Shown here piece by piece: positions 629-30,736 of a stretch of 32,666 nt of DNA (position 1 is the first letter of the stretch; each line of letters starts with the position of its first letter). Below the pieces are notes generated by a model. That model did no database searches. It saw only the letters and a program-made list of their open reading frames with translations, and was not told the origin of the DNA. The stretch covers positions 1 to 32,666 of the forward strand of contig JAKVBA010000046.1 of assembly GCA_022447525.1 (NCBI GenBank). Direction: 5' to 3'. Origin of the DNA: Gammaproteobacteria bacterium (GTDB taxonomy: Bacteria; Pseudomonadota; Gammaproteobacteria; Arenicellales; Arenicellaceae). A program made the translations under genes and the position numbers.

Positions 629-775
629 CTTAACCTGCGCATGTTTAAACCAAATCATGGGCACTTTTTTCAGGGGAAGCAGGTGAAATTCCTGCACTGA
701 CGCGCAACGGTGATGTGTGTGTAGGCACACTTAGTCCGATTACCTGATAGAAGCTTTAGAATCTCGCGAATAGAT
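629..775 (+). promoter_or_regulatory. Cobalamin (B12) riboswitch
   Basis: The 404-base gap between cbiB and the CobN-like gene contains the conserved core of the cobalamin aptamer. A GGGGAAGCAGGTGAAATTCC block starts at 673, followed by GCACTGACGCGCAACGGTGA and then, after a variable arm, a degenerate B12 box AGTCCGATTACCTGATAG at 733-750. Outer boundaries are approximate because I could not fold the RNA. The known ligand class is adenosylcobalamin or related corrinoids, and binding normally switches the downstream genes off. Position and orientation place the whole 952-9469 operon under its control. A candidate expression-platform terminator follows at 791-827. Confidence 0.92.
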
Positions 776-790
776 GACTTTTCAAAATAC

Positions 791-827
791 CTCTGTCTTC
801 ACTTTTTAGAATACGGTAGAGTTTTTT
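791..827 (+). terminator. Candidate riboswitch-controlled intrinsic terminator
   Basis: CTCTGTC (791-797) can pair with GGTAGAG (815-821), a 7-bp stem with two G.U pairs, and GTTTTTT follows directly. It lies about 40 bases after the B12 box, where an expression-platform terminator is expected. The stem is weak, so this is a candidate only. Confidence 0.5.
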
Positions 828-831
828 AACA

Positions 832-868
832 GGCTCTCGGTAATTAAAGATGACCGAAACCTCGAGCC
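832..868 (+). repeat. Second leader hairpin between the riboswitch and the CobN-like gene
   Basis: GGCTCTCGGT (832-841) pairs with ACCGA (853-857) and GAGCC (864-868), with a six-base bulge on the 3' side. No T-run follows. It may be part of the expression platform (for example an alternative fold) or have no role. The rest of the leader, to 951, shows no further structure that I recognise. Confidence 0.35.
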
Positions 869-951
869 GTCGTTACTTCGTTGAGAAAATACACATAGTC
901 CCTGTTTATTCGTTATAGGAATGAATGGCTAACTTGAAAGTATAAAACTCA

Positions 952-3900
952 ATGTTCCAGATAAAAAATTTTCTCTTAAAGGCCAGTTTCTTTTTTGTCT
1001 TACTAGCCTCTGTTAGCAATATCGTTAATGCGGCCTCATTACTACTGGTAGTCTCACCAAGAAACGCGGCCGACGTCTTGAGCGGCACGCATCAATTTTT
1101 AGATTCGGCTAAAGGTCATAAGGTCTACCTTAGAACGACTGATCAATTTTTAGACTTGAACGAGGCTGAGCGAACAAAACTTATTCAGGAAGTTGATCTT
1201 GTTTTTATCGGTGGTGTCTATGGTGACTCGGCTAGATATTTTAAACAGTTTTTAAAGGACTCAAAAGACATCGATAATTTCGTGGCTGTCCACAGCGATC
1301 GTGACCTAGTCAAAGCTTCAAAAATTGGTAGAAGGTCCATATTAGTTAATGCGGACTTGGATGCCATGATGAAAGATCCCCCTGCAGAAGCTTCCGCAGA
1401 TATGAGTTCATGGTTAGATTCAAGACTTGAGCTATTTAATCAGTCTAATGCTTGGTATTTAGCTAAATCCTTTTGGGCTGATAGAGAAACAAGCAATATA
1501 GATGGTCTACTGCGTCACTTAGTAAGTTTAACCGGTGAAAAAATTTCGGTGCCTAAGCCAATAATGCGCTCTCCTCTGCGTATGATACGAAATGGCTTGG
1601 TTACTTCAGTTGATGAGTCGAAGTTGCCCAAGGACAAAAAATGGATTGCGATAATCGACTATGAGACCGGCAGTCGTCCTGGGGAAGCAGAGTTAATCAA
1701 TAAACTTTGCGATCAAATCGAGTCTGATTCCACGTTGTTCTGCTTTGCTCTTCTGTCTAAATGGGGAGATGCTTCGGTCAGTGCCTCTAAGTTTTTAACC
1801 GAGCACAAGAAAAACCTATCGAGCATAATTTCATTGCAAAATTTCGTGTTGGGTGGTGGCGATGGTCGCGCTGAAGTGAATGCTCACCTAGCCGAACTCA
1901 ATGTGCCGATCCATAAAGCTATTAGATTAGCTGATAGCACGGAACGAGAATATTCGGTTTCTGAAGAAGGACTTCGATGGAATACCGTTCATTATCGAGT
2001 AGCGATGCCTGAACTACAGGGTGTGAGTCAGCCTTTGGTATTGGCCGCAATGACCTCTCCAAGTATAGATGCGCGCACTGGAGTAAAGCTGGCTTTGTCC
2101 AAACCAATATCGGCGCAGGTCGATCTTATGGCCGCTAGAGCAAAACGTTGGCATCAGCTACAAGTAAAGAAAAATCAGGATAAAAAGATTGGCGTTATTT
2201 ATTACAATCATCCACCAGGGCGTCACAATATTGGGGCCGATAATCTTAATGTTCCCAAATCCCTCTATCAAATTCTACTAAGTTTAAAAGCACAAGGTTA
2301 CAACACTGGCATACTGCCAGAATCCCCGGAAGCTTTGTTGGATATTCTGCAAGCTCGTGGAGTGAATTTGCCTGAGAATCGCACTGAACTGGCTAAAATG
2401 TCTAAGCTTGTTCAGCTGGTTTCTAGCGAAACCTATAAGAAGTGGTTTGATGAGCTCCCTGAGCTTATCCAAGATGAAATGACTAATGGGCCTTTGGGGT
2501 ATTTGCATCAAGTTCTGCAACAAGCAGTGGAGCTAGAAGATCCGGAAATAGCAACAAGGCTGACCAACAGAGTAATCCTTGATTTGAAACATGCTATGGA
2601 GGGCACAGAGCACCCGTCACGAGACAGGGTGATGGACCTTTTGAAGCAATTAAAGGCGGTTTACACTTCTTCAAGTCCAAAGAGCATTGATTGGAATCGC
2701 GCTAGATCACTGGTGGATGCTATCGCGCAAAGCCGTATCGAGGGTGTACGAGGATGGGGAACACCGCCAGGTAAAGTTATGGTCCATGATGGGAATATTT
2801 TGCTCCCAGGCATTCAATTCGGGAATGTGTTTGTTGGCCCACAACCCCCCAGAGGTTGGGAGCTAAGCGAAGAAGTTTTGCACGCCAACCTTTCTTTTCC
2901 GCCGACACATCAATACATTGCTTTCTATCAATGGCTAAGGAGAGATTTCAAAGCGGATGCTTTGGTGCATCTTGGTAGACACTCGACCTATGAATTTCTC
3001 CCGCGTCACCGAGTGGGTATGAACGATACTGATTATCCCACTGCTTTAATCGGAGATCTTCCGAGCGTTTACCCATACATAGTTGATGGTGTTGGTGAGG
3101 GAATACAAGCCAAAAGGAGGGGTTTAGCTGTGATGGTGGATCATCTTACCCCTCCTCTAGAAAGCACTGAACTCTATGATAAGTTGTTGGAGCTCAGGCA
3201 ACTGGTTGAAAGTTACGAGGCCGCGCCTGAAGCAGCCGGTGTGATGAGATCAAGAGCCATCATTCAGATCAAAAATTTAGTGGATGAATTAAAACTTAAA
3301 GATGAACTCACTGAGAGTATGCGGGGTGAGCTTGAGATACGTGGTGTGGAAGCTTATGACGATGTAGATGATGAGTTTTTAGTACATGAGGTTGGACATT
3401 ACTTAACCAAACTACAAGAAGACTTTATGCCTCTCGGCTTACACAGTTTTGGTACTGAATGGTCCGAGCAAGCCGTTAAGACAATGGTAGATTCAATTGC
3501 GAAAGGCGAACATGAGTCCTCGGAAGCAAGCAAAGCTGAGTGGAAGTCTTTGCTCGAGATATCTCCCTCGGCTGAGATGAATGGGCTCTTAAATGGTTTA
3601 TCCGGTGGATATGTCCAACCAGCAAAAGGTAATGATCCTATTAGAACGCCAGATGTCTTGCCAACTGGGCGTAACTTCTATGCTTTAGACGGTGGGCTTA
3701 TACCTTCTCGTATCGGTCACCAAGTTGGTGTTGAACTAGCTCGAAAAGCCAGAATGCAAACCGAAAGCGATGAGGCCGACGCTGTCGTTTTATGGGCCTC
3801 TGATGTGGTACGCGATGAAGGCGCAATGATCGCCTTTGGCTTTGATATGCTGGGGGTTAAGCCAGTCTGGAGTAGTCGAGGTATCGTGCAAAAGCTTGAG

Positions 3901-5310
3901 CGGTTGGACATCCAAAATATGAGTGAGAATGGTCATCCCAGAGTTCGTAGAGATACGGTCTATACTACTTCGGGTCTGTTCCGAGATTTATACGGGGCAC
4001 ATATAATTTGGTTAGAAAAAGCGGTTCTAATGGCCTTGGATGCGTCCGCCGACACGATTCGGTCTGACTACCCTGCTCTTTCACTAGCCCTTAATCAAGC
4101 TCTATCGCCACTTGAAAGCTCCGCTACTGGTGGTAATGAGCCATTGGCAATCAATCGAGTGGCTAGTCAATGGGTAAAAGATACAACAGCGGCTATGAAT
4201 CGAGGTTTAAGTGCCCAGATAGTTGGTAAACAAGCAACCTATCGGATATTCGGAGATGCTCCTGGGAGTTATGGCGCTGGAGTAAATCGCATGGTTGAAA
4301 GATCAGGTGCATGGAAACAACGTTCTGAGATAGCGGACGTATACATCAGTCGTATCGGACACGCTTATGGATTACAGGTACAGGGGCAACCTGTGCAAAA
4401 ATTGTTTATGGAGCGATTGGACACAGTTGGAAATACGTACTTAGGCCGTTCTAGTAATCTCTATGGCCTGTTAGACAATAATGATACGTTTGACTATTTG
4501 GGTGGATTGAGTCTCGCTGTTGAAACCGTGAAAGGAAGTGTGCCCAATAGTTTTATTCTCGCTCACGAAAACAGCTCAAAGATTAGCGTCGAGCCCTTAA
4601 GTACCGCATTATTGTCCGAATTGAGAGGAAGATTTCTTAATCCTCAGTGGCTTGAACCACTTATGCAGGAAGGTTATGCCGGAGCTCGAACAATGGGAAG
4701 TGAGTTCTTTGAGTATTTGTGGGGTTGGCAGGTCACCAATCCAGATATCGTCAAAAGTTGGGTTTGGGATGATGTTAAGTCTGTTTACATAGATGACAAA
4801 CACGATTTAGGTTTGGATACTTTCTTGGAAGAAAATCATAACGTACACGTTAAGTCTAATATGTTGGCCGTTATGCTGGTTGCGTCATATAAAGGCTTTT
4901 GGGAATCAGGAGATGAAACAATAAGTGCCGTATCAAATCAATTTGCGGATTTGGTGATAGAACACGGTCTTCCTGGAAGTGGGCACACAAGTCCTGATAA
5001 TCCAGTTTTCGAGTATGTGAAAGAAAGATTGAATGCTGACAAACAAGGCAAGCTTGCTGCCGTACTAAATGCAGCTCAGGTCACCAAGGAAACTAATAGA
5101 TCTCTCACTACAATCTCGGAGATTAGCGAAGAATCATCGAATGAGAAAAATTCAAATAGCGATTCAGCACAGTCTGAGAAATCAGATAGCCAAGATTACG
5201 ATGACACCTATATGATGGCCTGGATCATCGTATTACTGGCAATACTACTGCTTGTGGGAGCTTTTTTAGGAATGCGAACACCCATTTCAAAGTCTGATTC
5301 AAGCGAATAA
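952..5310 (+). CDS. cobN: CobN-like chelatase, exported and membrane-anchored
   Basis: This 1452-residue protein belongs to the CobN/BchH large-chelatase family; its central part (about residues 600-1250) carries typical CobN blocks such as GRHSTYEFLPRH, GIQAKRRG and LPTGRNFYALD. Classical CobN is cytoplasmic and inserts cobalt into hydrogenobyrinic diamide with the AAA+ proteins CobS and CobT. This one differs. Residues 1-27 form a clear signal peptide ending VNA, a Ser/Asn/Glu-rich linker covers about 1385-1420, and a single membrane helix (WIIVLLAILLLVGAFLG) ends the protein. It should therefore be a periplasmic domain tethered to the inner membrane. No CobS or CobT is nearby; an ExbB-like channel and a DUF2149 protein follow instead, the arrangement of HmuS with HmuU and HmuV. 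The reaction, cobalt insertion, removal or another corrinoid remodelling step, cannot be read from sequence. The riboswitch argues for a corrinoid rather than heme. Confidence 0.85.
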   Translation: MFQIKNFLLKASFFFVLLASVSNIVNAASLLLVVSPRNAADVLSGTHQFLDSAKGHKVYLRTTDQFLDLNEAERTKLIQEVDLVFIGGVYGDSARYFKQFLKDSKDIDNFVAVHSDRDLVKASKIGRRSILVNADLDAMMKDPPAEASADMSSWLDSRLELFNQSNAWYLAKSFWADRETSNIDGLLRHLVSLTGEKISVPKPIMRSPLRMIRNGLVTSVDESKLPKDKKWIAIIDYETGSRPGEAELINKLCDQIESDSTLFCFALLSKWGDASVSASKFLTEHKKNLSSIISLQNFVLGGGDGRAEVNAHLAELNVPIHKAIRLADSTEREYSVSEEGLRWNTVHYRVAMPELQGVSQPLVLAAMTSPSIDARTGVKLALSKPISAQVDLMAARAKRWHQLQVKKNQDKKIGVIYYNHPPGRHNIGADNLNVPKSLYQILLSLKAQGYNTGILPESPEALLDILQARGVNLPENRTELAKMSKLVQLVSSETYKKWFDELPELIQDEMTNGPLGYLHQVLQQAVELEDPEIATRLTNRVILDLKHAMEGTEHPSRDRVMDLLKQLKAVYTSSSPKSIDWNRARSLVDAIAQSRIEGVRGWGTPPGKVMVHDGNILLPGIQFGNVFVGPQPPRGWELSEEVLHANLSFPPTHQYIAFYQWLRRDFKADALVHLGRHSTYEFLPRHRVGMNDTDYPTALIGDLPSVYPYIVDGVGEGIQAKRRGLAVMVDHLTPPLESTELYDKLLELRQLVESYEAAPEAAGVMRSRAIIQIKNLVDELKLKDELTESMRGELEIRGVEAYDDVDDEFLVHEVGHYLTKLQEDFMPLGLHSFGTEWSEQAVKTMVDSIAKGEHESSEASKAEWKSLLEISPSAEMNGLLNGLSGGYVQPAKGNDPIRTPDVLPTGRNFYALDGGLIPSRIGHQVGVELARKARMQTESDEADAVVLWASDVVRDEGAMIAFGFDMLGVKPVWSSRGIVQKLERLDIQNMSENGHPRVRRDTVYTTSGLFRDLYGAHIIWLEKAVLMALDASADTIRSDYPALSLALNQALSPLESSATGGNEPLAINRVASQWVKDTTAAMNRGLSAQIVGKQATYRIFGDAPGSYGAGVNRMVERSGAWKQRSEIADVYISRIGHAYGLQVQGQPVQKLFMERLDTVGNTYLGRSSNLYGLLDNNDTFDYLGGLSLAVETVKGSVPNSFILAHENSSKISVEPLSTALLSELRGRFLNPQWLEPLMQEGYAGARTMGSEFFEYLWGWQVTNPDIVKSWVWDDVKSVYIDDKHDLGLDTFLEENHNVHVKSNMLAVMLVASYKGFWESGDETISAVSNQFADLVIEHGLPGSGHTSPDNPVFEYVKERLNADKQGKLAAVLNAAQVTKETNRSLTTISEISEESSNEKNSNSDSAQSEKSDSQDYDDTYMMAWIIVLLAILLLVGAFLGMRTPISKSDSSE

Positions 5311-5351
5311 AGAAAACACAAATACTAATAGCGGATAAAGGTAATTTAGCA

Positions 5352-5810
5352 ATGGGTCTATTCGACGGTTCAATTTTTGGCGTAATGCATATTTTGGTGA
5401 GTTTTCTATTGCAGCCTGTAATTTGGGCCCTTTTATTACTCACTGGTATTGCCATTATCGAATTAGGCATATGTGTGGCTGAACGGACGTTTGCATTGAA
5501 AAGGTGGTCGGAGACCGAGAACATCATCGGATTTGAAGAGCTCGCAATGCGCAGAATTGAACGAACCGATTTTCTGACTAGGATAGCTCCAATGCTGGGT
5601 CTAATGGGAACCTTAATTCCTTTGGGGCCGGGTCTTTCCGCTCTAGGGGATGGAAACTTAAGCGTTTTGACTACCGCCATGAGCGTCGCCTTCGACACCA
5701 CTGTTTTGGGGCTATTGGTTGGGATCATTGGTTTTGTAATCGGTCGTTTTAGACGCCGTTGGTATGAATCCACCATGCGAAGTATAGAAGTCAACGAAGG
5801 AAAAAACTAA
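5352..5810 (+). CDS. MotA/TolQ/ExbB-type proton channel protein
   Basis: A 152-residue inner-membrane protein with three predicted helices (about residues 10-40, 75-98 and 105-130). The second and third helices carry the ExbB/TolQ core: APMLGLMGTLIPLGPGLSAL followed by AMSVAFDTTVLGLLVGIIGF. ExbB and TolQ form pentameric channels that use proton motive force to drive an ExbD/TolR dimer. It is much shorter than ExbB (about 240 aa) and lacks a large cytoplasmic loop, as in the HmuU-type members next to CobN-like genes. A good ribosome site (AAAGG) precedes the ATG. The stop overlaps the next start as TAATG, so the two are translationally coupled. Inferred role: energising the CobN-like protein. 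Confidence 0.85.
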   Translation: MGLFDGSIFGVMHILVSFLLQPVIWALLLLTGIAIIELGICVAERTFALKRWSETENIIGFEELAMRRIERTDFLTRIAPMLGLMGTLIPLGPGLSALGDGNLSVLTTAMSVAFDTTVLGLLVGIIGFVIGRFRRRWYESTMRSIEVNEGKN

Positions 5811-6151
5811 TGCACGCTAGAAATGGGCAAAGAAGGTGGAATACCAGTCGGTTTGAGCAACAAGAATCGGAACCCCTTGGTCCGTTGGCAAATCTTTTAG
5901 ATTTGATGTTGGTATTTGCTTGCGGATTGATCGCGGCACTTATTGCCATGAGTAAAAATGTGGACGAACACTTTTCTAAAAATCAAAATGCAGCAACGAG
6001 CCAATACTCCGCCAGTGAAAAAGTCGTGACCAAGGGTAGAGAATTGCCGTCTCTACCCAATCAAGGACAAAATGCTGGCGAGGGGTATGAGCCAGTTGGT
6101 CAGGTTTACCGAGATCCTAAAACTGGGAAGCTCATACTAATTGGGGAGTAA
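5810..6151 (+). CDS. DUF2149 protein, probable ExbD-like channel partner
   Basis: A 113-residue protein with one helix near the N terminus (LANLLDLMLVFACGLIAALI, about residues 27-46) and a short exported tail ending GYEPVGQVYRDPKTGKLILI, which is the DUF2149 signature. The helix begins with an Asp in LLDLMLVF, in the position and context of the essential Asp of ExbD/TolR (compare PLIDVMLVLL). This suggests a stripped-down ExbD. DUF2149 proteins neighbour CobN-like and ExbB-like genes in other loci (HmuV type). Translation is coupled to the preceding gene through TAATG. The ExbD analogy is my inference from sequence pattern and gene order. Confidence 0.82.
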   Translation: MHARNGQRRWNTSRFEQQESEPLGPLANLLDLMLVFACGLIAALIAMSKNVDEHFSKNQNAATSQYSASEKVVTKGRELPSLPNQGQNAGEGYEPVGQVYRDPKTGKLILIGE

Positions 6152-6157
6152 TTCAAA

Positions 6158-7492
6158 GTGCTTTCAACTTTCAATTTGATGTTCAATCAGCCAACAAAGT
6201 CTCTTTCAGCCCTTATAATTCATCTGGCTTTCAGCATGGCCCTAGTTGGCTTTCAAACTGTTCAGGCAAAAGACACTCCATACATGACAAGCAAACAGAA
6301 AGCTGAGATTGTGAAAAAATCACAGACCACACTAAAAGACACCAATCTCTACCACGTAAAACGCGAAGGCAGGCAACTTGTTGTGCACCTAAAGCAAAAG
6401 CACAGGGTGCTCTCCACTTCAGATATAAATGGAGGTGAAAGAGAAAACATTAAACACATTGTCAACTTCCAAAGTATGGAAGCTAACAATCATCACCAGC
6501 GCTTCAAAGAAATTGTTAAGTTAAGTAACGAGAAATATCACGCTAGTCTCGCAGAGAGGCTGAATATTCCGGAGACTTCAATGGTAAGCATGGGCACCGC
6601 CGCGAACATAGCAAATACGGCCTATGTGATTAAAAGCTTCCACGATCTTACCGTTGAAGCTTACGTAACCGCTGGTGTCTCAGGTAATGCTTTAAGGGCC
6701 GGAGATCATGCGTCTTGGTATCAGTCTGATTCTGGCAATGTCTACGTTGGTGACGATTCTGACCACAGTGGTAATAAGATTGGAGTCGACGAGGCTAAAG
6801 AGAAACATAAAGATTCGGGAACGATTAATATTATCGTGTTGATAAATCGCCCAGTCACTCCCGGCGCACTGGCGAAAGCCGCTTCTTTAGTGACTGAGGC
6901 AAAATCAGCGGCTCTTTCTACACTTGCGATTAGCAGTACTGTTTCGCCTTCTTTTGCTACAGGCACTGGCACAGATCAATATGCAATTGCGGCGCCCTTG
7001 GTGCCCAAAGAAAAAGTGTTGGGCAGCGCAAGTGGTCACTTAAAGATTGGCGAGTTGATTGGAGTGTGCGTCTATGAAGCGGTGCTTAAAGCATTGGAAC
7101 TACAGGAAGGGTTAACGCCCTTGGCTTCTCGTCAAGTGAGTCATGTATTTAAACGGTTTAAAGTGACTAATGAGACCCTGTTAAATGATTTGGAAAAAAG
7201 GTTGAGTGACGAAGAGTTTGCCCTTTTACGAGATAATGCTTCGGCAATATTCAGCGATCCAAAGCTTGTAGCTGCGGCTTACGCCTATTCTGCGGTGCTA
7301 GATAGGATTCAGAATGAAACCTTCGACAACACGATTCGCGGCGATGTTTTGCTTGATCAAGCTGTGAATGTTGCAGTTGCAATCGCTGGTCCCGGAAGAA
7401 ACTATCGCGAGTCTCTACAAAAAGTTGGCGATGAAGAACTAGACGCTTTCTTGCAAGCATTCGTACTAGGTTGGAAAGCGAAGTGGCAATAA
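6158..7492 (+). CDS. cbiZ: Adenosylcobinamide amidohydrolase CbiZ, predicted periplasmic
   Basis: CbiZ removes the aminopropanol arm from (adenosyl)cobinamide and related corrinoids to give cobyric acid, the first step of remodelling foreign corrinoids. Family blocks are VLSTSDINGGERENIKHIVN near residue 85, TAANIANTAYV near 148, VEAYVTAGVSGNALRAGD near 167, and ATGTGTDQYAIAAPL near 267, followed by KIGELIGVCVYEAV. The surprise is the N terminus: residues 1-38 form a signal peptide ending VQAKD, while known CbiZ enzymes act in the cytoplasm. About 135 extra residues after the CbiZ core have no function that I recognise. The start is GTG at 6158, supported by GGGGAG nine bases upstream and by the intact signal peptide. 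The gene is 6 bases from the DUF2149 gene. Confidence 0.86.
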   Translation: MLSTFNLMFNQPTKSLSALIIHLAFSMALVGFQTVQAKDTPYMTSKQKAEIVKKSQTTLKDTNLYHVKREGRQLVVHLKQKHRVLSTSDINGGERENIKHIVNFQSMEANNHHQRFKEIVKLSNEKYHASLAERLNIPETSMVSMGTAANIANTAYVIKSFHDLTVEAYVTAGVSGNALRAGDHASWYQSDSGNVYVGDDSDHSGNKIGVDEAKEKHKDSGTINIIVLINRPVTPGALAKAASLVTEAKSAALSTLAISSTVSPSFATGTGTDQYAIAAPLVPKEKVLGSASGHLKIGELIGVCVYEAVLKALELQEGLTPLASRQVSHVFKRFKVTNETLLNDLEKRLSDEEFALLRDNASAIFSDPKLVAAAYAYSAVLDRIQNETFDNTIRGDVLLDQAVNVAVAIAGPGRNYRESLQKVGDEELDAFLQAFVLGWKAKWQ

Positions 7493-8448
7493 AACTGAAT
7501 AACTTAATAAAGACTTCACTGCTCTCTATCTTTTTTACTTATGTTTGCTGCTGTCCCGGACTGAGCAAAGCGCAAGAAGAAAGCATTGAAAGCTTGTCCG
7601 TTGACTCCCAATTGCGCGTTGCAATGCTGCATTTAGATTTGAAATACGCTGACATAGATCACAATTTAGGCTTAATTGAATCAGGGGTTCAACAAGCGGC
7701 TGCGTTAGGTGCCAATTGGGTATTGACCCCAGAACTAGCATTAACGGGCTACCGCTTTGACCTAAAATTAGGAACGGATTGGATTCAACTAGGCCCAGAT
7801 GAATCCGTCAAAGGAATACAAAAGCTCGCTAAAGAGAACGGTGTTACCGTGTTTTTAAGCCACCTTGAGCGTGCCCATCTTGAAGGTGCCGCCCCTGAGG
7901 GAAACTATGAGACAAAAAAGTCAGCAAAAAAGGCGCTGTTTAATACTCTGTTTGTAATAGGCAAGAATGGTGAGATATTGGGTCGACACAGAAAAATTAA
8001 TACGATTCCCATTGCTGAAAGTTGGTCCACACCTGGAAAGAAAGCTCTATCTTTGGATATTGATGGGATCAATGTAGGTTTACTAATCTGTGCAGATGCT
8101 TGGCCAGAGGAACACACGCAATATTTGAAAGAACAGGGGGTTGATTTAATCGTGTCCAGTGCGAGTTGGGCACCCGGAGAGTATGGTCCCAAAGATACTT
8201 GGGAAAAGAGATCAATTGAGACTGGTATTCCGTTTTTTGTTAATAACCGCACTGGTTTTGAACGTGGGCTTGACTTAACTGAGTCTAAAAGTGTGGTTTC
8301 AATCGATGGGAGCAGAGTAATGTCGCACTCATCAATAACATCCAAAATTGTCGTATTTGACTGGCATCAAGGAAGTAAAAAGCTTTCGAATCAAGCAACG
8401 TTCGACTTGATTCACCAAAACTACTTTGATGGTGCTAGCAGTGATTGA
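7483..8448 (+). CDS. Exported nitrilase-family amidohydrolase
   Basis: A carbon-nitrogen hydrolase with the complete Glu-Lys-Cys triad: E84 in TPELALTGY, K171 in GRHRKIN and C203 in LLICADAWPEEH, numbered from the GTG at 7483. This start has a GGAA ribosome site seven bases upstream and leaves a 10-base overlap with cbiZ; a TTG at 7471 is the alternative. Residues 1-31 look like a signal peptide (hydrophobic IKTSLLSIFFTYVCCC, then GLSKAQ), unusual for a family that is mostly cytoplasmic. The family hydrolyses amides or nitriles. In this operon the obvious candidates are corrin side-chain amides or an aminopropanol amide, but no substrate can be read from the sequence. The adjacent Cys residues also leave lipidation possible. 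Confidence 0.83.
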   Translation: MAIKLNNLIKTSLLSIFFTYVCCCPGLSKAQEESIESLSVDSQLRVAMLHLDLKYADIDHNLGLIESGVQQAAALGANWVLTPELALTGYRFDLKLGTDWIQLGPDESVKGIQKLAKENGVTVFLSHLERAHLEGAAPEGNYETKKSAKKALFNTLFVIGKNGEILGRHRKINTIPIAESWSTPGKKALSLDIDGINVGLLICADAWPEEHTQYLKEQGVDLIVSSASWAPGEYGPKDTWEKRSIETGIPFFVNNRTGFERGLDLTESKSVVSIDGSRVMSHSSITSKIVVFDWHQGSKKLSNQATFDLIHQNYFDGASSD

Positions 8449-9469
8449 TCAGGTTCGGCACGGTGGTAATTTGCAGGAAGCCATCAAACAATACGGTGGT
8501 GAAATACATGAATGGTTAGATCTCTCAACCGGGATTAGCCCTTGGCCATACCCTATTCCAAATATACCAAGTGATATTTGGCGTGATCTGCCTAATTTGA
8601 GCCCAGATTTACTTAGTGCTGCTTCGCAGTACTATCGATGCTCGATTGATCAGATAACAGTAACACCAGGCTCTCAATTGGCAATTCGCTTATTGCCTAC
8701 CCTCGTACACGGTAAGCAGTCGGTTGCCATACCTGAAATGGGTTATAAAGAGCACCTACATGCATGGAAAGTCGCGGGCCATAAGCTTGTTTTTTACGAG
8801 AGCATCAATGAGTTGATTCGACTTTGTGAAAATCAACTTGTCACGAATGTCGTGATCATTAACCCCAACAACCCATCAGGTGAAGCGATGTCGCCCGCGG
8901 TACTTGAACGTCTTAGCCCAACGATACCAGGGGTCATGATCGTGGATGAAGCATTTATGGATTTAAACGAGGAATATTCGTTACTGAATCGCGCTTTAAG
9001 CGGAAATATAGTCGTGCTTAGATCGGTTGGAAAATTCTTTGGTTTGGCGGGCGCGAGAGTTGGATTTGCTATTGGTAAACATCCACTAAATCGACAACTA
9101 AGGGAGCTATTCAACCCTTGGTCGATTACTGGACCCAGCCAGTATGTAGTCAAACAGGCTTTGGAAAACAAACAGTGGCAACACAATCAAAGAGAGCGCG
9201 TAAAAACTCAAAGCAAAATGTTTGAGGCATCTTTGAAAATCTTTGTTTCCGCTCATACTCATAAATCGTTTGAGATTGTAGCAACGGGGTTGTTCAATAC
9301 CATTCGTGGAGATGCTCTGGCGATCGCAAACATGCACAACCTCTTGGCCCAACATAAAGTTTGGACTCGTATAGGGGATGCCACAGATGAGCGAAATTGG
9401 CTTAGAATTTCGCTCCCCGATAACCATGTATTTGAACGAGTCGTTGGTGTGTTAGAGCTTTACTCTTAG
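8429..9469 (+). CDS. cobC: CobC/CobD, threonine-phosphate decarboxylase-type aminotransferase
   Basis: A fold-type I PLP enzyme of the histidinol-phosphate aminotransferase family. It shows the N-terminal HGGN and DLSTGISPWPYP blocks of CobC/CobD, the cofactor motifs NPNNPSG and VDEAFMDL, and the Schiff-base lysine K202 in SVGKFFGLAGARVGF. CobD makes (R)-1-amino-2-propanol phosphate from threonine phosphate, the substrate of CbiB at the left edge of the window. It has no signal peptide, so unlike the three preceding products it acts in the cytoplasm. The ATG at 8429 overlaps the nitrilase gene by 20 bases; there is no clear ribosome site, and a TTG one codon upstream or a GTG at 8441 are alternatives. 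It is the last gene of the operon. Confidence 0.88.
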   Translation: MVLAVIDQVRHGGNLQEAIKQYGGEIHEWLDLSTGISPWPYPIPNIPSDIWRDLPNLSPDLLSAASQYYRCSIDQITVTPGSQLAIRLLPTLVHGKQSVAIPEMGYKEHLHAWKVAGHKLVFYESINELIRLCENQLVTNVVIINPNNPSGEAMSPAVLERLSPTIPGVMIVDEAFMDLNEEYSLLNRALSGNIVVLRSVGKFFGLAGARVGFAIGKHPLNRQLRELFNPWSITGPSQYVVKQALENKQWQHNQRERVKTQSKMFEASLKIFVSAHTHKSFEIVATGLFNTIRGDALAIANMHNLLAQHKVWTRIGDATDERNWLRISLPDNHVFERVVGVLELYS

Positions 9470-10588: not shown

Positions 10589-12523
10589 CTAAACTATATC
10601 AGGTGCTTTACATTTGTCGGACACGTAATCTATCGCATCTTGGATATTAGTAAAAGTAGTTTGTTCACCAGTGATGTGTCTCAAAGTAACCTGAGATTTT
10701 TCTGCTTCCTGTGCTCCTATAACAATCATAAAAGGTACTTTTTGCAGCGTTTGACATCGTATTTTATAGCCAATTTTTTCTCTGCCAATATCGTATTCCA
10801 GTCGAATATTTGCTCTATCAAAAGACTTGCCAACCTCGAGTGCATACTCATTGAAGGGTTCAGAGATCGTCATGATTGCTACCTGAACTGGTGCCAACCA
10901 TGCCGGAAATTTACCGGCATGGTGCTCTATCAAAATTCCGATAAACCTCTCAAGTGAACCAAATAGTGCTCGATGTAGCATAACCGGCGTTTTCTTATTG
11001 CCATCTTCATCTACGTAATCCAGTTCGAAGCGTTTTGGCAGATTCATGTCTACCTGAAGAGTCCCACATTGCCAATCTCGCCCAATCGCATCGCGTAATA
11101 CAAACTCAAGTTTTGGCCCATAGAACGCGCCTTCACCAGGGTTAAGTTTGTAGTCCAATTCTAGAGCTTCAAGCGAATCGATTAGAGCCGCTTCAAGAAT
11201 GTCCCAGATACCATCAGAGCCCATGCGCTTTTCTGGACGCGTGGACAATTTTATTGCAATGTCATCGAACCCAAGTTGCTTGTAAATATCCAACACTAAA
11301 TGAATGATCTTAGTGCACTCTTCCAACATTTGCTCTTCTTTGCAGTAAATATGAGCATCGTCCTGAGTAAAATGACGCACTCGCATTAGCCCATGTAATG
11401 CACCAGAGAGTTCGTAGCGGTGAACTTTGCCGAACTCAGCCATTCGAATCGGCAGGTCACGATAGCTCTTTAGTCCATGATCGTACATCATCACGCTACC
11501 AGGGCAATTCATTGGCTTTAATGCCAGTGTTTTGTCGTCGGCCGTTTCCGAGGTGTACATATTCTCGCCATAGTTTTCCCAGTGACCTGACTTTTCCCAC
11601 AAACCGAGGTCCATAATATCCGGTGTATTGACTTCGATGTAACCGGCATTGTGTTGTCGCCGCCGCATATAGCTAATCAGCTCTTGGAATACTTTCCAAC
11701 CTTTGTGATGCCAAAAAACAGCCCCGATTGCTTCTTCACGAAAATGAAATAAGTCGAGCTCTTTGCCTAACTTCCGATGATCTCGTTTTGCGGCTTCTTC
11801 CAGCATTCGTAAATGACTGCGAAGTTCCTTTTTAGTTGCCCAAGCGGTGCCGTATATCCGCTGTAATTGTTCGTTTTTAGAATCACCTCGCCAATATGCA
11901 CCAGAGACTTTGGTTAGAGTCATATGTTCTAAAAAGCGAGTATTCGGCACGTGAGGGCCTCGACACATATCGATATATTCTTCGTGATAATACAGTCCCA
12001 TGTGTGTCTCATTTGGCATGTCCTCGATCAACTTCAATTTGTAATTTTCGTTGCGAGAACCGAATATGCTGACGACTTCATCGCGCGGTGTTCTTCGTTT
12101 GATTACATCGTAATGAGTAGCGATCAATTCTTTCATTCGAGCTTCGATTAGCTCTAAATCTTCGGGAGTAAAAGAACGTTCATACGCTATATCGTAGTAA
12201 AAGCCGTTTTCAATAACCGGACCTATGACCATCTGAGCGGTTGGATAGAGCTGCTTTACAGCATGCCCGAGCAAATGGGCGCAAGAGTGCCGAATGATCT
12301 CCACACCATCGGCATCTCGCGGTGTAATAATTTTAATGGAAGCATCCGTTTGTATAGGATCACAGGCGTCAACCAATTTTTCATTGACTCTTGCCGCCAC
12401 TGTACTCTTAGCAAGACCTGCCCCTATCTCGGTGGCTATTTCCATCGGAGTTACTCCGACTGGATAGGTCTTGATCACACCATCAGGCAAGGTGATGTTT
12501 ACTTGCTCATTCATTTTTGACAT
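10589..12523 (-). CDS. thrS: Threonyl-tRNA synthetase, probable zinc-starvation paralogue
   Basis: Full-length ThrRS (644 aa) with a TGS domain (1-65), an editing domain with HSCAH (H79, H83) and CRGPH (C187, H191), the class II catalytic core and the C-terminal anticodon domain. The catalytic zinc ligands are all present: C340 in MNCPG, H391 in DDAH and H517 in MLHRA. The gene is not followed by infC-rpmI-rplT, the usual arrangement in gammaproteobacteria. Instead it is third in a pyrC-folE2-thrS operon, 21 bases after folE2, behind a Zur-type palindrome. That context matches duplicated ThrS enzymes expressed under zinc limitation. Because the ligands are conserved, a better zinc affinity rather than zinc independence would be the expected difference. 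Whether a second thrS exists cannot be seen here. Confidence 0.95.
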
Positions 12524-12544
12524 TGTTACTACTCTATTTCTTTT

Positions 12545-13459
12545 TTATGCGGAATTCTGTGATTCCTTAAAATCGATAACTACTGCGTTATGGCCATGCA
12601 GACTTTCTTGATGATCAACCTTAAACCAATAATCCGTAAGCTCTGGTAATTGTTGTAAAAATGCCTTGATCCTGCGTGCCGCGTCCTCACAAAACATTAA
12701 ATTTTCAGCATTCAAGCGAGCGAACTCTTGCTCATCAATACGTTTTACGGCGGTTTGCACAGGTGTGCCAATCGCCTTTTCCAGGTTGAAGATAAATGAA
12801 TCCAAACTTTGCCAATCACCCTCAGTAAATGAATACCTCACTGTTGCGTAAGAACGTTGACTATGCGGAGTTGCAATCGAACCGGCATCAGATTGAATCC
12901 AAGCCAAGAGCTCTTTCTTGTCAATCTGATTACCCTTAAAAAGCCCATCGACAGCATTCGCATATAGCTGCCTCGATAATGAGGCGGAACAAGGGCAAGT
13001 ACTGGAATAAGGGATAACTACCTCTATTTGGTAGTTAAATCTGTTAGCTTTTTTCTCAGCAGCAATTTTTACTGGATAAGCTTGAAAACCTGATTCGTCA
13101 CTCAGTAATGCGCTTTTTTTAAGTATCAAATCAAAATCCAGCTCTAATCTCGCGCTATTGCTGATATCACCTTGAGATTCTATGAGTACATCAAGTACTT
13201 TATCGATATTAGATTTGGAGCATTCCAACTCATTAAGAGTGTTTACGGCATGATGAAGCCTGGACATATGAATGCCCTTTGCGGCCAGCGAATCCAAGCT
13301 CACATAGACATTGACACTGGCAGCTAACGACAGCGTACCTTGAGTGGATAGATTTAAAAACGTCGGAACTGCAATTTGTTCCATGCCAACCCATTGCAAT
13401 CTTGCGGGCGCGTCTGGCTGTCCGTCGGCGGCAACGTCAGGTAAAGTTTTGACTAGCAA
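12545..13459 (-). CDS. folE2: GTP cyclohydrolase FolE2 (type IB)
   Basis: FolE2 converts GTP to dihydroneopterin triphosphate, the first step of folate and queuosine-precursor synthesis. Unlike zinc-dependent FolE it works with several divalent metals, and many bacteria keep it as a Zur-regulated backup. The 304-aa protein has the family length, the conserved CPCS motif (C155, C157) and the final HGHNAVV block. It starts at TTG (13459), well supported by AGGAG seven bases upstream. It sits between pyrC (24-base gap) and thrS (21-base gap), clearly one operon. The combination is a well-known signature of the zinc-sparing response. Confidence 0.95.
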   Translation of the reverse strand: MLVKTLPDVAADGQPDAPARLQWVGMEQIAVPTFLNLSTQGTLSLAASVNVYVSLDSLAAKGIHMSRLHHAVNTLNELECSKSNIDKVLDVLIESQGDISNSARLELDFDLILKKSALLSDESGFQAYPVKIAAEKKANRFNYQIEVVIPYSSTCPCSASLSRQLYANAVDGLFKGNQIDKKELLAWIQSDAGSIATPHSQRSYATVRYSFTEGDWQSLDSFIFNLEKAIGTPVQTAVKRIDEQEFARLNAENLMFCEDAARRIKAFLQQLPELTDYWFKVDHQESLHGHNAVVIDFKESQNSA

Positions 13460-13483
13460 GTTATTTCTCCTAATATTTAGCTT

Positions 13484-14821
13484 TTATCGAGCGAAGCTAA
13501 GTCGCTCAGCAACACCGGGTATCATAACGACTGATTTGCCGTCATACACCTGCTCTCCGTTGACCCAAGTGCCGGTGATTGTTGATGAAAACTTGACTCC
13601 TTTAAAAGGGCTCCAACCGCAGTGATACAGGATATTCTCATCGGTCACTTCATATGAATCGGCTGTATCTACCAACACGAGATCGGCAAAATACCCCTCT
13701 CTTATGTACCCTCTTTCTTGGATTCCATACCGCTTACTAGGATTGTGCATTGCTTTTTCTACAAGCTGCTCAAAAGTTAAACGACCCTTATCGACATGCT
13801 CTAGTAACGTCAGGAGTGCATGCTGAACAAGTGGAAGTCCAGCAGGAGCTTTCTCATAGGCTTGTTGTTTTTCCTCAAACGTATGAGGAGCGTGATCGGT
13901 AGCAATAATATCAATTTGGCCAGACTGTAAAGCATGCAAAATAGCGTCGCGATCGTTTTTCGATTTTATCGCTGGATTACATTTAATTAAGTTCCCCAGT
14001 GACGGATAGTCTTCATCGCAAAACCAAAGATGATGAACGCATGCCTCAGCAGTAATTTTCTTACCTTCTATGTCTCCCGGTTCAAACAGATCTAACTCTT
14101 TCGCAGTTGTTATATGCAAGACATGCAACTGTGAACCGTATTTTTTAGCCAGATCGACCGCATAAGACGAAGATGCATAACAAGCGTTATGATCTCTGAG
14201 CTTGGGGTGATCTAAAATTGTCGGAATCTTTTCTGCGTCCCTGTAGGCGGCTACATTAGAGAGAATCATCGGAGTATTCTCGCAATGAGTGACAATCAGT
14301 GTCGGACTATCCCGAAAAATAGCATCTAACGCTTCAGGAGCCTCTACTAAAAGATCACCCGTGGACGCCCCCATGAATACTTTAACGCCACAATGTTTAG
14401 TTGGATCAAGCGATTTAATCTGTTCTAGATTATCCTCTGTGGCTCCTAAGTAAAAAGAAAAATTCGCTGCTGAAGTCTGCTTAGCGATATTGAACTTGCT
14501 CTCCAGAGCTTCAATGGTAGTAGTAGCCGGGTTGACGTTTGGCATTTCCATATAACTGGTGATGCCGCCAGCAACTGCGGCAAGTGACTCACTTCGAATA
14601 GTACCTTTTTGTGTCAAGCCAGGTTCACGAAAATGAACCTGATCATCAATCATGCCAGGTAGTAAATACTGCCCGTTAGCTTCTATTACGCGATCGTTTG
14701 CTTTGGCGGCTATTTCACTAGAAATTTGCTCGATGCGTTTACCTACAATTTTTAGATCGGCAGTAAAAATGGTGCCATCGTTAACGATTTTTGCACCTTT
14801 GATAAGGATGTTATTTGGCAT
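13484..14821 (-). CDS. pyrC: Dihydroorotase, PyrC2-like, with a changed metal motif
   Basis: An amidohydrolase-superfamily dihydroorotase of 445 aa that would cyclise carbamoyl-aspartate to dihydroorotate in pyrimidine synthesis. Visible elements are MIDDQVHFREPG (59-68), EMPNVNP, GVKVFMGASTGD with K147, THCEN with H179, HVLHIT with H236 and ATDHAPHT with D309. The classical HxH ligand pair reads QxH here (Q61, H63), so one metal ligand is replaced, as far as I recall also in Bacteroidetes-like and PyrC2-type enzymes. First gene of the operon with folE2 and thrS, 160 bases after a Zur-type site. A role as a zinc-sparing copy of pyrC is the natural inference. Allantoinase or a related cyclic amidase is less likely. 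Confidence 0.88.
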   Translation of the reverse strand: MPNNILIKGAKIVNDGTIFTADLKIVGKRIEQISSEIAAKANDRVIEANGQYLLPGMIDDQVHFREPGLTQKGTIRSESLAAVAGGITSYMEMPNVNPATTTIEALESKFNIAKQTSAANFSFYLGATEDNLEQIKSLDPTKHCGVKVFMGASTGDLLVEAPEALDAIFRDSPTLIVTHCENTPMILSNVAAYRDAEKIPTILDHPKLRDHNACYASSSYAVDLAKKYGSQLHVLHITTAKELDLFEPGDIEGKKITAEACVHHLWFCDEDYPSLGNLIKCNPAIKSKNDRDAILHALQSGQIDIIATDHAPHTFEEKQQAYEKAPAGLPLVQHALLTLLEHVDKGRLTFEQLVEKAMHNPSKRYGIQERGYIREGYFADLVLVDTADSYEVTDENILYHCGWSPFKGVKFSSTITGTWVNGEQVYDGKSVVMIPGVAERLSFAR

Positions 14822-15130: not shown

Positions 15131-15853
15131 TTAAAACCATGAGTGAATACCTAAAATAAACTCCACTTCACTAGTAGATTCGCCCTTGCTACGCCTGATA
15201 TTTTTTGTGGCGCCGAAGCTTTGCGACATCGATACACCAATAAACGGTTGGAATTTTTTATTCCCATTATGTTCATAACCCAGCCTGAGGCTGAATTCGA
15301 TATCAGCTAAACCGGAACCCTCGTCATACTGTGGATTAGTATTGCCATTTGCTACGATATCGAGCTCGGGTGTTATGACCCAGCTCTGAGTCAACATCAG
15401 CTCTTTCTCAAGCTCAATTAACAGCTGAGAACTTGACTCCTCACCAACAAAAAACCTGGCATCTACCTCGATAAAATAAGGCGCAGTTCCCAGATAACCA
15501 ACCGAGAGCCATGATCTTGGTTCTGAGTTTGAACCTGAATCGAAATCTCGCCTAAAGCCAAACTGTTGATCCCAATAGGCGCTTACAGCTCTACTATAAA
15601 CAAGTTCAATATCAGCGTGTTCTACCTTTCCACCGATGAACTCACCAGAAGTTTTTAACCAGTATTTGGCGAGGTCTTTACCGCGCCAAGCATCAACATC
15701 CCACTCTAAAACACCCTTTCCATCTTCCCTGAGGTATTCGAACTCAGACATGACTTTAGTCAATACCGGGTCATCAGAAAACATGGCATTGGTAACTTTA
15801 GGCTGGAGTACAAGGATTAAACCTAAAACGCCTAGGGCGATCTTCAATCTCAT
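15131..15853 (-). CDS. copB: Copper resistance protein CopB, outer membrane
   Basis: A 240-residue exported protein with a signal peptide (residues 1-23, ending TNA). The mature part follows the CopB family (PF05275): a WDVDAWRGKDLAKYWLKTSG block, then alternating amphipathic strands (ELVYSRAVSAYWDQQFGFR, WLSVGYLGTAPYFIEVDAR), and a terminal aromatic Phe, typical of an outer-membrane barrel. CopB partners CopA in periplasmic copper sequestration or export. It lacks the Met/His-rich N-terminal region found in many longer CopB proteins, so it may be a barrel-only form. AGGAG lies six bases before ATG, and the gap to copA is only 9 bases. Confidence 0.9.
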   Translation of the reverse strand: MRLKIALGVLGLILVLQPKVTNAMFSDDPVLTKVMSEFEYLREDGKGVLEWDVDAWRGKDLAKYWLKTSGEFIGGKVEHADIELVYSRAVSAYWDQQFGFRRDFDSGSNSEPRSWLSVGYLGTAPYFIEVDARFFVGEESSSQLLIELEKELMLTQSWVITPELDIVANGNTNPQYDEGSGLADIEFSLRLGYEHNGNKKFQPFIGVSMSQSFGATKNIRRSKGESTSEVEFILGIHSWF

Positions 15854-15862
15854 CTTAAGCTC

Positions 15863-17704: not shown

Positions 17705-17747
17705 TTTGCTACCTCCGAAATAGTTAATTAGTAAAAATGATCACTAA

Positions 17748-18089
17748 TCAGATTTTCTTTGGAGGCCGGGGTTGAATGGCTGTTAATATTGAGGGGAAAG
17801 AACTCTGAGACCATCCAGATTTAGCATGGGCACTCGCTTGCAGGTCGCCAAGGTCGCTATCCATTGAAATCGCTTGAGCCATGACAGTACAAAACATTTC
17901 GCAGGCCAATGAGTTGACAGATTGATCTGCGCTAATGTCTTTGGCTCCGTGGCAGGATGCACTGACCTCTATCTTATGATCCGGATTATTTTTGAGAGAC
18001 GTGGAGGCATGCACTGTCGCAACCGAACTCGCCGCTAAATAAATTAGCAAGAATGCAAAAGAAAAGGTTTTTTTCAGGACAACGTACAT
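17748..18089 (-). CDS. Small exported Cys-containing protein of the cop operon
   Basis: A 113-residue protein from the ATG at 18089; the frame can start five codons earlier at a GTG (18104), but that overlaps a -10-like sequence. A signal peptide covers about residues 1-28 (KKTFSFAFLLIYLAAS, then VHAS). The mature part has SCHGAK and ACEMFC, so three closely spaced cysteines, a histidine and methionines that could bind copper, and ends QPRPPKKI. I do not recognise the family. Its place 43 bases before copA suggests a copper-linked periplasmic role. Confidence 0.65.
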   Translation of the reverse strand: MYVVLKKTFSFAFLLIYLAASSVATVHASTSLKNNPDHKIEVSASCHGAKDISADQSVNSLACEMFCTVMAQAISMDSDLGDLQASAHAKSGWSQSSFPSILTAIQPRPPKKI

Positions 18090-18095
18090 AGCTTC

Positions 18096-18126
18096 ATTAT
18101 ACACCTTGATTCAGTCTTCATGTGAA
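18096..18126 (-). promoter_or_regulatory. Candidate cop operon promoter with 19-bp spacer
   Basis: On the minus strand TTCACA (18121-18126) and an extended -10 TGTATAAT (18096-18103) are separated by 19 bases. That spacing is typical of promoters activated by MerR-family regulators such as CueR, which would suit a copper operon, but I see no convincing dyad in the spacer. If it is real, transcription would start almost at the ATG (18089), giving a leaderless message. Confidence 0.4.
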
Positions 18127-18297
18127 TACAGAGTTTGTAAAAGCAAGTCGACCGTTTGCACGAGTCCTCACATTGCTCGAAAAATGCTTATCAAAAGCCA
18201 CTTTATCTGATTGGACTCTCTTGTGTGTCGCATGTTATTGCAGAAATAACAAATCGAATATCAGTATATTGTAACGTGTGTTAATCTCCCGTTGCTA

Positions 18298-18340
18298 AAG
18301 TTATCGTGGGTTAAAACTTCTTTACCTCTGACGATAACTT
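18298..18340. repeat. Perfect 10-bp inverted repeat before the MerC-domain gene
   Basis: AAGTTATCGT (18298-18307) and ACGATAACTT (18331-18340) are exact reverse complements with a 23-base spacer, 28 bases before the ATG at 18368. It could form a leader hairpin or be a double operator. No T-run follows, so it is not a terminator. The wider gap (18105-18367) also holds TGTTATT-GCAGA-AATAACA at 18233-18251, a Zur-like half-site pair with abnormal spacing. Confidence 0.45.
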
Positions 18341-18367
18341 AAACTGATTAAATACAATCTATCTTTC

Positions 18368-18790
18368 ATGAAATACGATATAAATAATCTGCCTCTAGCT
18401 ACTTCAATCGCAAATATAGATCGTTTTGCTGTAAGTCTGTCTTTGTTGTGCGTGGTTCATTGTCTGTTAACGCCGATATTGCTTGTTGCAATGCCTTCAC
18501 TTACATCAACTGTTCTGGGTGGAGAAAAATTACATTTACTTTTGGTTTTCTTGATCTTACCTACAAGCCTATTTTCCTTAACCTTAGGTTGTAAACGACA
18601 CAGTCGGTGGATATTTTGGATCGCGGGGCTAGTCGGACTCGCGCTATTGATTACCGGGGTCTTCGTAGAACCGCTAGGGCTCGATCACCATTGGGAAACT
18701 CGTCTTACTTTAATTGGATCTGCCTTTGTAGCCAGCGCTCATATACTCAATTTTATCGAGTGCAGGAAGCGAGCAGAGCATGGCTGCTGA
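18368..18790 (+). CDS. MerC-domain membrane protein
   Basis: A 140-residue protein with four predicted membrane helices and the MerC pattern (PF03203): SLLCVVHCLLTPILLVAMP in the first helix and a final NFIECRKRAEHGC tail. MerC in mer operons carries Hg(II) through paired cysteines; here the first-helix motif is CVVHC, the version usual in MerC-domain proteins away from mer genes. No other mer gene is present. It is 24 bases from the next gene and lies between copper and zinc genes, so a role with a thiophilic metal or zinc is plausible, but the substrate is unknown. Confidence 0.82.
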   Translation: MKYDINNLPLATSIANIDRFAVSLSLLCVVHCLLTPILLVAMPSLTSTVLGGEKLHLLLVFLILPTSLFSLTLGCKRHSRWIFWIAGLVGLALLITGVFVEPLGLDHHWETRLTLIGSAFVASAHILNFIECRKRAEHGC

Positions 18791-18814
18791 GTCAAAAAAA
18801 TAAGTATTAGCAAA

Positions 18815-28387: not shown

Positions 28388-28420
28388 AACAGAATCATCT
28401 AGGGGAAAAAACTTCTTATT

Positions 28421-30735: not shown

Positions 30736-30736
30736 C

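Follow-up and report, generated by a model that had tools for sequence, protein, structure and literature searches.

Six tightly packed genes on the forward strand of contig JAKVBA010000046.1, from a gammaproteobacterium of the Arenicellaceae, occupy positions 952-9469 behind what we read as a divergent cobalamin riboswitch and encode a CobN-like protein, an ExbB-like protein, a DUF2149 protein, CbiZ, a nitrilase and CobD/CobC. The stretch analysed (the window, 32,666 nucleotides) is this entire contig (G000:C164), from an assembly of 3.62 Mb that is 96.5% complete. We consider it probable that the operon serves B12-controlled corrinoid handling in a salvage-only marine gammaproteobacterium, which would remodel corrinoids in the periplasm, import cobyric acid through BtuFCD and rebuild cobalamin. 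The riboswitch placement, the gene set, the lack of de novo synthesis, the export and anchoring features and an intact chelatase histidine are displayed by the sequence itself. The triad of CobN-like, ExbB-like and DUF2149 proteins is of a known type (hmu; 'BtuS'); comparison adds the riboswitch control, which appears to set corrinoid triads apart from the others.

An earlier note on this DNA had described one cobalamin riboswitch before six packed genes, with ExbB-like and DUF2149 products among them. Both descriptions hold, with an RF01482 match below cut-off, intergenic gaps of 41, -1, 6, -22 and -23 nucleotides along the operon, and matches to PF01618 and PF09919. The features are as follows.

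98-547, + strand: 3' half of cbiB (cobinamide-phosphate synthase; PF03186, E 8e-53, profile positions 154-281)
647-780, + strand: divergent adenosylcobalamin riboswitch aptamer, as read here (RF01482 AdoCbl, 42 bits, gathering score 50, E 2e-6)
952-5310, + strand: CobN/ChlH-superfamily protein of 1452 amino acids, predicted to be exported and membrane-anchored, HmuS/'BtuS'-like (PF02514, E 3e-246)
952-1032, + strand: putative signal peptide of the CobN-like protein, residues 1-27, ending VNA/A (translation, hydropathy maximum near the N-terminus)
2968-2994, + strand: active-site motif HLGRHSTYE of the CobN-like protein (H673, H677, E681; alignment to PDB entry 9d26)
5224-5274, + strand: predicted C-terminal membrane helix of the CobN-like protein, followed by Lys/Arg (17-residue mean hydropathy 3.07)
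5352-5810, + strand: ExbB/TolQ/MotA-like proton channel subunit, HmuU-like (PF01618, E 6e-11, 42.6 bits, cut-off 22.9)
5810-6151, + strand: DUF2149 protein, HmuV-like, with one membrane helix and a C-terminal hairpin (PF09919, E 3e-13)
6158-7492, + strand: CbiZ (adenosylcobinamide amidohydrolase), predicted to be exported, with a helical C-terminal domain in a CbiS-like layout (PF01955, E 2e-49)
6158-6268, + strand: putative signal peptide of CbiZ, ending VQA/KD (hydropathy and inspection)
7471-8448, + strand: nitrilase-superfamily amidase, predicted to be exported (PF00795 CN_hydrolase, E 1e-24)
8426-9469, + strand: L-threonine-phosphate decarboxylase, CobD/CobC (TIGR01140, 271 bits, below the cut-off of 290.6)

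The cbiB gene, interrupted by the contig start, lies upstream of the riboswitch. By eye, a GTG at 7483 is the likelier start of the nitrilase. The product of 8426-9469 goes by the name CobD in Salmonella and CobC in aerobic naming.

In the scheme that we propose, a shortage of adenosylcobalamin would turn the operon on, and foreign corrinoids would enter through BtuB. Periplasmic CbiZ would remove the aminopropanol-nucleotide arm, yielding cobyric acid for import by BtuFCD, after which the arm would be rebuilt by CobD and CbiB and the preferred lower ligand added by CobU, CobT and CobS. The triad would form the conserved heart of the system, and the role of CbiZ in converting cobamides to cobyric acid is clearer than that of the triad.

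Riboswitch control and genome context of the triad

The RF01482 score of the element at 647-780 comes from a 501-base scan; with RF00174 the same aptamer reaches 26.2 bits genome-wide (E 1.4e-4), short of the 31.5-bit cut-off, and a scan of the window returned no element at or above an Rfam gathering score. Because of these sub-threshold scores we call the aptamer divergent. We still read it as a cobalamin riboswitch, since above-cut-off copies in relatives occupy the same place before the triad. Folding of the leader RNA was not better than that of shuffled sequences (z -0.81).

Comparison with relatives extends this placement. Of 25 genomes that have a triad of the window's kind, 21 carry a cobalamin riboswitch at the head of the triad-containing operon, and in 16 of these it scores above the Rfam cut-off. 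Riboswitches at named loci were matched to contigs by coordinates, with six loci, and also L089, L042 and L041, re-scanned directly; two of the 25 genomes (G018 and G047), whose genes are broken and stand outside the tree described below, were counted by identity and motif. Among the remaining four, two (G016 and G006) have only 22-bit matches, L085 has its riboswitch on the strand of a divergent receptor, and at L098 the contig ends 33 nucleotides before the gene. By comparison, eight other triads stand beside TonB receptors (in G131, G230, G444, G426, G363, G301 and G328, together with the second G476 triad), and none of them has a riboswitch match near it, though each genome has one elsewhere. 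Three triads of other types that lie in B12 loci (G487, G315 and G362) do have a riboswitch. Judged from these sequences, riboswitch control adds a feature that appears to split corrinoid triads from other triads. A label of 'heme triads' for the eight receptor-side triads proved too strong: only two of the six receptors tested (L069 and L070; L071 and L073 were not among the six) pass the heme-receptor cut-off. The TonB receptor behind the triad of L041, first taken as a BtuB relative, was likewise set aside, as a thiamin pyrophosphate riboswitch (L041:10347-10477) precedes it; this triad-adjacent receptor is a candidate thiamin receptor. At L044 (G047), three cobalamin riboswitches occur within about 8 kb, before a 693-amino-acid TonB protein, a CobN-like gene broken into three frames and a BtuB-like receptor.

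The triad itself is closely kept. DUF2149 occurs in 17 of 398 genomes of the phylum, at 18 places. All 16 places fetched have an ExbB-like gene within 74 nucleotides and a CobN-like gene nearby, the largest distance being 2.1 kb (in L078, where CbiZ lies in between); the window brings the places covered to 17, all but the one in G183. A quick-method tree of 40 rows, rooted merely for display and with long branches flagged between groups, assigns the window protein to a 24-row clade that also includes Colwellia, Cellvibrionaceae, Methylophaga and an alphaproteobacterium, separate from cytosolic CobN and from eight other triad proteins. Signature motifs of the clade are HLGRHSTYEFLP, WASDxVRDEG and LDNNDxFDYLGG. 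The tree left out duplicates or broken or partial genes (L022, L027, L039, L040, L043, L079, L080, L092 and L099) as well as L044, L073, L074, L078 and L095, which fell outside the motif and length filter, L078 being present in alignment A3.

Gene content around the triad varies. Operons of the Colwellia type run from a membrane protein of about 200 amino acids (no Pfam match) through CobB, the CobN-like protein, ExbB and DUF2149 to CobA. The first of these proteins, at L087:7744-8367 and likewise in L063, L086, L088, L091, L093 and L096, has no Pfam or NCBIfam match in its L087 copy and is a candidate corrinoid or cobalt transporter. Downstream of the triad, the window, G016/L084 and G018/L079 each have CbiZ and the nitrilase, and L089 has the nitrilase without CbiZ. 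In another class of the same phylum, G362 (L078) carries, behind a 121-bit cobalamin riboswitch, a series of genes that starts with a TonB receptor (23% identity to the BtuB of this genome) and continues with DUF2162, ExbB, DUF2149, CbiZ, CobN-like protein and CbiK. This operon resembles that of the window in its receptor, ExbB, DUF2149, CbiZ and CobN-like genes and its control, but its CbiZ is fused to a periplasmic-binding domain (Peripla_BP_2), DUF2162 and the CbiK-like chelatase are extra, and its CobN-like protein is only 33% identical.

Genome content points to salvage. CbiC, which both corrin-ring routes require, was missing from this genome and from all 35 triad-bearing genomes, compared with its presence in 7 of 14 control genomes. 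Neither chelatase subunit, CobT (TIGR01651) or CobS (TIGR01650), was found in this genome (ChlI/ChlD were not searched), nor was a CobB match, and the window's CobN-family gene is the only one found. Because CbiC and the chelatase CobT and CobS are absent, the host looks like a salvage-only organism with a CobS/CobT-less CobN-like protein, apparently with the capacity to turn cobyric acid back into cobalamin. Among the 35 triad-bearing genomes, 21 have a CobB match (15 above cut-off); none is seen in the six Arenicellaceae, which therefore could not redo a,c-amidation. This genome has two further cobalamin riboswitches, outside the window. That of L008 precedes a TonB receptor (taken as BtuB), CobA/BtuR, CobQ, BtuC, BtuD, CobU, CobT (here the dimethylbenzimidazole phosphoribosyltransferase), a BtuF-like protein and CobS (here cobalamin synthase). 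At L007 (G000:C169), a 75.9-bit cobalamin riboswitch stands before NrdA/NrdB-like genes, named by eye from translations, which probably encode a ribonucleotide reductase that is itself independent of B12 and regulated by it.

The CobN-like protein and the ExbB/DUF2149 pair

The nearest solved structure to the CobN-like protein is HmuS (719 bits; PDB entry 9d26). The HxGxH superfamily motif is kept, and His-538 and Glu-577 of HmuS align with H677 and E716 of the window protein. Across the triad groups, 25 of 25 proteins carry H673, H677, E681 and E716 unchanged, so the site looks catalytic. Three features that PMC12583661 lists for the heme de-chelatase HmuS are lacking, and membership in the heme type was rejected. 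His-1209 of HmuS (in LSLDHxxEFMGG) is not matched, the window protein having LDNNDTFDYLGG with Asp-1178, and Asp is also found at this position in cytosolic CobN. For the neck ligand His-254, there is no His at residues 296-306 in the 18 window-clade rows of A3, where gaps make the register uncertain. The methionine-rich insertion is not present, residues 832-893 comprising 62 residues with two Met. The part of the head that holds the heme ligand Met-79 in HmuS does not align by sequence. Because the three HmuS features are missing, the His/Glu pair is kept and the surroundings are those of B12, the active site would be of chelatase type and tuned to a non-heme ligand, most likely a corrinoid.

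Anchoring is a second shared property. A C-terminal membrane helix followed by one to four Lys/Arg within ten residues is found in 32 of 32 triad-linked CobN-like proteins and in none of eight cytosolic-type CobN rows (one truncated by a contig end). Since the positive-inside rule applies to this helix, we place the body of the protein in the periplasm; its N-terminus carries a hydrophobic stretch with a small-residue cleavage site, as judged by hydropathy and eye.

Similar arrangements have been described. In the Bacteroidota hmu operon HmuS-HmuU-HmuV (PMC10434189, PMC12583661), HmuS likewise belongs to the CobN/ChlH superfamily, has a membrane segment at each end and stands beside an ExbB-like and a DUF2149 protein. 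HmuS and the window protein share the active-site His and Glu. The hmu set, however, is under iron/heme control, whereas the window set has a B12 riboswitch, sits with B12 genes and includes CbiZ and the nitrilase in addition. The name BtuS has been in use since 2003 (cited in PMC6460266). According to that paper, BtuS proteins are relatives of CobN that are distinct from both CobN and ChlH and predicted to act in salvage, and BtuS1/2 of B. fragilis are predicted to be exported and membrane-attached; those of B. fragilis concern heme iron, whereas a corrinoid is favoured for the window protein. With CobNST, which inserts cobalt late, the window protein shares the CobN fold and the HxGxH site, but it is predicted to be exported and membrane-anchored in a genome without CobS/CobT and corrin synthesis. 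Membership in CobNST was rejected because neither CobS/CobT nor corrin-ring synthesis (CbiC) was found in this genome.

In the DUF2149 protein, an Asp of the membrane helix (D31) is invariant in 25 of 25 sequences, and a model (mean predicted local distance difference test score, pLDDT, 66) consists of helices and a C-terminal hairpin. ExbD also carries a membrane Asp, and the likeness of DUF2149 to ExbD is limited to this motif. ExbB-like proteins conduct ions. From these sequence features, coupling of ion flow through ExbB/DUF2149 to the membrane helix of the CobN-like protein appears plausible. CobN depends on an ATPase pair (PMC7689651). Such a pair would be unusable for a periplasmic CobN-like protein, because the periplasm cannot fuel an ATPase.

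We therefore picture the CobN-like protein as a membrane-anchored relative of class I chelatases that would bind corrinoids at the His-677 site in the periplasm, with ExbB/DUF2149 replacing the CobS/CobT ATPase and ion flow driving a conformational cycle through the C-terminal helix. Its reaction, most likely on the metal or on axial ligands, is the weakest step of the scheme. Our first choice would be that it puts cobalt into corrinoids that hold no metal or the wrong one, because a shortage of B12 should induce the system, which also makes destruction of corrinoids unlikely; exchange of metal, processing of axial ligands, or capture and release of the substrate are further candidate roles. 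The fullest version of this picture can be offered only tentatively: a proton-driven periplasmic class I corrinoid chelatase with ExbB/DUF2149 as stand-in for CobS/CobT, by which salvage-only bacteria would metalate or re-metalate corrinoids outside the cytoplasm, and to which the Arenicellaceae would add extracytoplasmic cobamide remodelling by exported CbiZ.

CbiZ and the nitrilase

The CbiZ domain of the window protein scores above its profile cut-off (PF01955, 169 bits against 27). It keeps 22 of 28 family-conserved columns and retains the conserved G-T-I-N, TGTGTD and His. As in CbiS, the domain is part of a two-domain layout, although the match to the CbiS family NF038002 (68 bits) is below its cut-off of 250. 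The window CbiZ differs from known CbiZ/CbiS remodelling enzymes at its N-terminus. A hydrophobic, export-like start is found in all four triad-linked CbiZs (mean hydropathy 1.5-2.4 over 14 residues), followed in the window protein by a small-residue cleavage site. In the 16 other CbiZs of the phylum start hydropathy is at most 1.46 and none looks export-like, the reading frame of the L121 CbiZ starting inside the domain. CbiZ occurs in 17 of the 398 genomes, and both genomes with CbiZ and DUF2149, the window's included, have the two in one operon. To our knowledge CbiZ has so far been known only as a cytoplasmic enzyme, and its predicted export would place a cobamide-remodelling enzyme in the periplasm.

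A structural model of CbiZ (mean pLDDT 68, built from four sequences) matches the fold of DmpA, BapA, NylC and ornithine acetyltransferase with Z scores of 12.7-15.0 over about 190 residues, the next group scoring under 8. Foldseek compares the model with the DmpA-type fold at E 6e-5, a template-modelling score of 0.3 and a root-mean-square deviation of 8.7. A search of the PDB by sequence with the window CbiZ returned no relative. The motif G-T-I/V-N is invariant in 20 of 20 CbiZs, the loci behind the fold and motif observations being window positions 6158-7492, L078, L079, L084 and L108-L125. We take this motif to resemble the self-cleavage motif of the DmpA family. In light of the model, it is a candidate self-cleavage site of CbiZ, with Thr-222 as the candidate nucleophile, and the catalytic mechanism of CbiZ may follow from the self-processing N-terminal nucleophile (Ntn) hydrolase fold of DmpA and NylC. 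The C-terminal helical domain (7109-7489), which no family matches directly, resembles YpjQ/LtrC structures at borderline Z scores of 7.6-7.8. CobZ is related to PgpA, and the domain may be a phosphatase domain of the CobZ kind, like that of CbiS.

In the nitrilase, the Glu, Lys and Cys motifs (PEL, GRHxKxN and LICADAWP) are kept in all four triad-linked proteins, and all four have hydrophobic, export-like starts. Together with the N-termini of CbiZ and the CobN-like protein, these features, common to relatives, support the signal peptides that the earlier note had claimed for the three products. Hydrolysis of corrin amides would be a purely conjectural role for the nitrilase. Because CbiZ and the nitrilase are each recognised in so few triad loci, they are best regarded as local additions to the triad.

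Alternative readings and neighbouring genes

Several observations weigh against periplasmic corrinoid remodelling around a proton-driven triad. The window's riboswitch lies below the Rfam cut-off, like four others of the 21. CbiZ is recognised in only 4 of 40 triad loci, L078 included, and the nitrilase in 4 of 40, a count that excludes duplicates and in which L092 and some other loci are cut by contig ends. The export calls rest on hydropathy and inspection by eye, not on SignalP; the start of the L084 CbiZ (1.51) is barely above those of non-exported CbiZs, and N-terminal hydropathy alone does not separate triad CobN-like proteins from cytosolic CobN. True homology of DUF2149 with ExbD was not supported, with an hhalign probability of 0.1% against 11 ExbD sequences (11 of 30 loci yielded a sequence under the filter) and a match to PF09919 only. 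Of the three Arenicellaceae genomes with a CbiZ-containing operon, two (G016 and G018) encode, away from it, a CobT-like protein that scores under the family cut-off. Conversion of heme with NADH is reported for recombinant HmuS in the abstract and a section heading of PMC12583661, which name no ExbB/DUF2149; because HmuS is active in this way, ion flow may not concern the chemistry and the pair may serve substrate transfer.

The alternative that we take most seriously, though we think it rather unlikely, is that ExbB/DUF2149 acts as a private ExbB/ExbD-type energiser for uptake through BtuB, with the CobN-like protein as a periplasmic corrinoid catcher or hand-off factor and not an enzyme. 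In PMC12583661, HmuU/HmuV are drawn as powering import by HmuR, and the head and neck domains of HmuS are likened to periplasmic binding proteins; the run of G047 (L044), with its TonB protein, BtuB-like receptor and three riboswitches, also fits. None of the window's genes, however, is a receptor; blastp with the BtuB of this genome found nothing similar in the fetched flanks of L042, L082, L083 and L094, and beyond G047 no TonB-like protein was recognised near triads, neighbours not all having been scanned. The genome also has five ExbD-family genes of its own, and the chelatase residues are invariant. That an HmuS-type heme de-chelatase was brought under B12 control seems improbable. HmuS is the nearest solved structure, the triad is the same as hmuSUV and the His/Glu pair corresponds, but the window protein lacks the methionine-rich insertion and a His near the His-254 position and has Asp-1178 at that of His-1209; riboswitches occur in 21 of 25 genomes for this kind of triad against 0 of 8 at receptor loci, and no heme receptor stands beside the operon in the window.

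Removal by the CobN-like protein, either of cobalt from unusable corrinoids as a cobalt supply or of upper axial ligands before import, would agree with the removing direction in which HmuS runs (PMC12583661). Removing cobalt would, however, destroy the molecule that a B12-repressed system should supply, and in the second motif the protein has the Asp of CobN where HmuS has His, so that we give this reading little credence. The family name suggests an ordinary cobaltochelatase that serves B12 synthesis together with CobS/CobT or ChlI/ChlD, as do CobT-family matches in 5 of the 35 triad-bearing genomes (above cut-off in G328 and G517, below it in G016, G018 and G363). That reading is nonetheless highly improbable given the absence of chelatase CobT/CobS matches here (ChlI/ChlD not searched) and of CbiC in all 35 genomes, the membrane anchor and export features, and the placement of the clade apart from cytosolic CobN.

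We thus retain B12-controlled corrinoid handling as the preferred reading. The corrinoid context assumed in the earlier note is borne out by the riboswitches, by B12 genes beside the triad in relatives and by the salvage run of L008. Its proposed kinship with HmuS-HmuU-HmuV agrees with the structural match, and the CobS/CobT partners that would have spoken against it were looked for and not seen in this genome. Of the checks it suggested, recurrence of the gene set behind B12 riboswitches held for the triad, with CbiZ and the nitrilase each recognised at 4 of 40 triad loci; BtuB and BtuCDF are present in the same genome, in the L008 run behind another riboswitch, and no receptor is found among the window's genes. 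As a whole, the earlier interpretation is partly supported: the system is real and conserved and its character was for the most part judged correctly, while the proton drive, the handling of metal by the CobN-like protein and the action of the nitrilase on corrin amides stand as inference.

In the open-licence literature we found no paper that has CbiZ, CobN and ExbB together, which does not show absence from print. CobN homologues without CobS/CobT are easily annotated as 'cobaltochelatase' and misread as a sign of B12 synthesis, and here riboswitches tie a whole CobN-like clade to salvage-only genomes. The clade offers a direct test of whether ion flow can power class I chelatases. As the corrinoid forms that an auxotroph can use decide its cross-feeding partners in the sea, a set of enzymes that widens this range matters ecologically.

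Elsewhere in the window, positions 10589-14821 and 27626-31936 encode ThrS and dihydroorotase (both named by eye), FolE2, DksA, HisI, ZrgA and an FtsX-type ATP-binding cassette (ABC) pair. Zur-box-like palindromes lie at 14982 and 28419 (four matches, two of them overlapping, against 0.59 expected), and these genes look like a zinc-starvation set. Between them, positions 15131-19561 hold a copper/metal cluster of CopB, a multicopper oxidase with a Met/His-rich insert (by eye), MerC and a HupE/UreJ-like permease.

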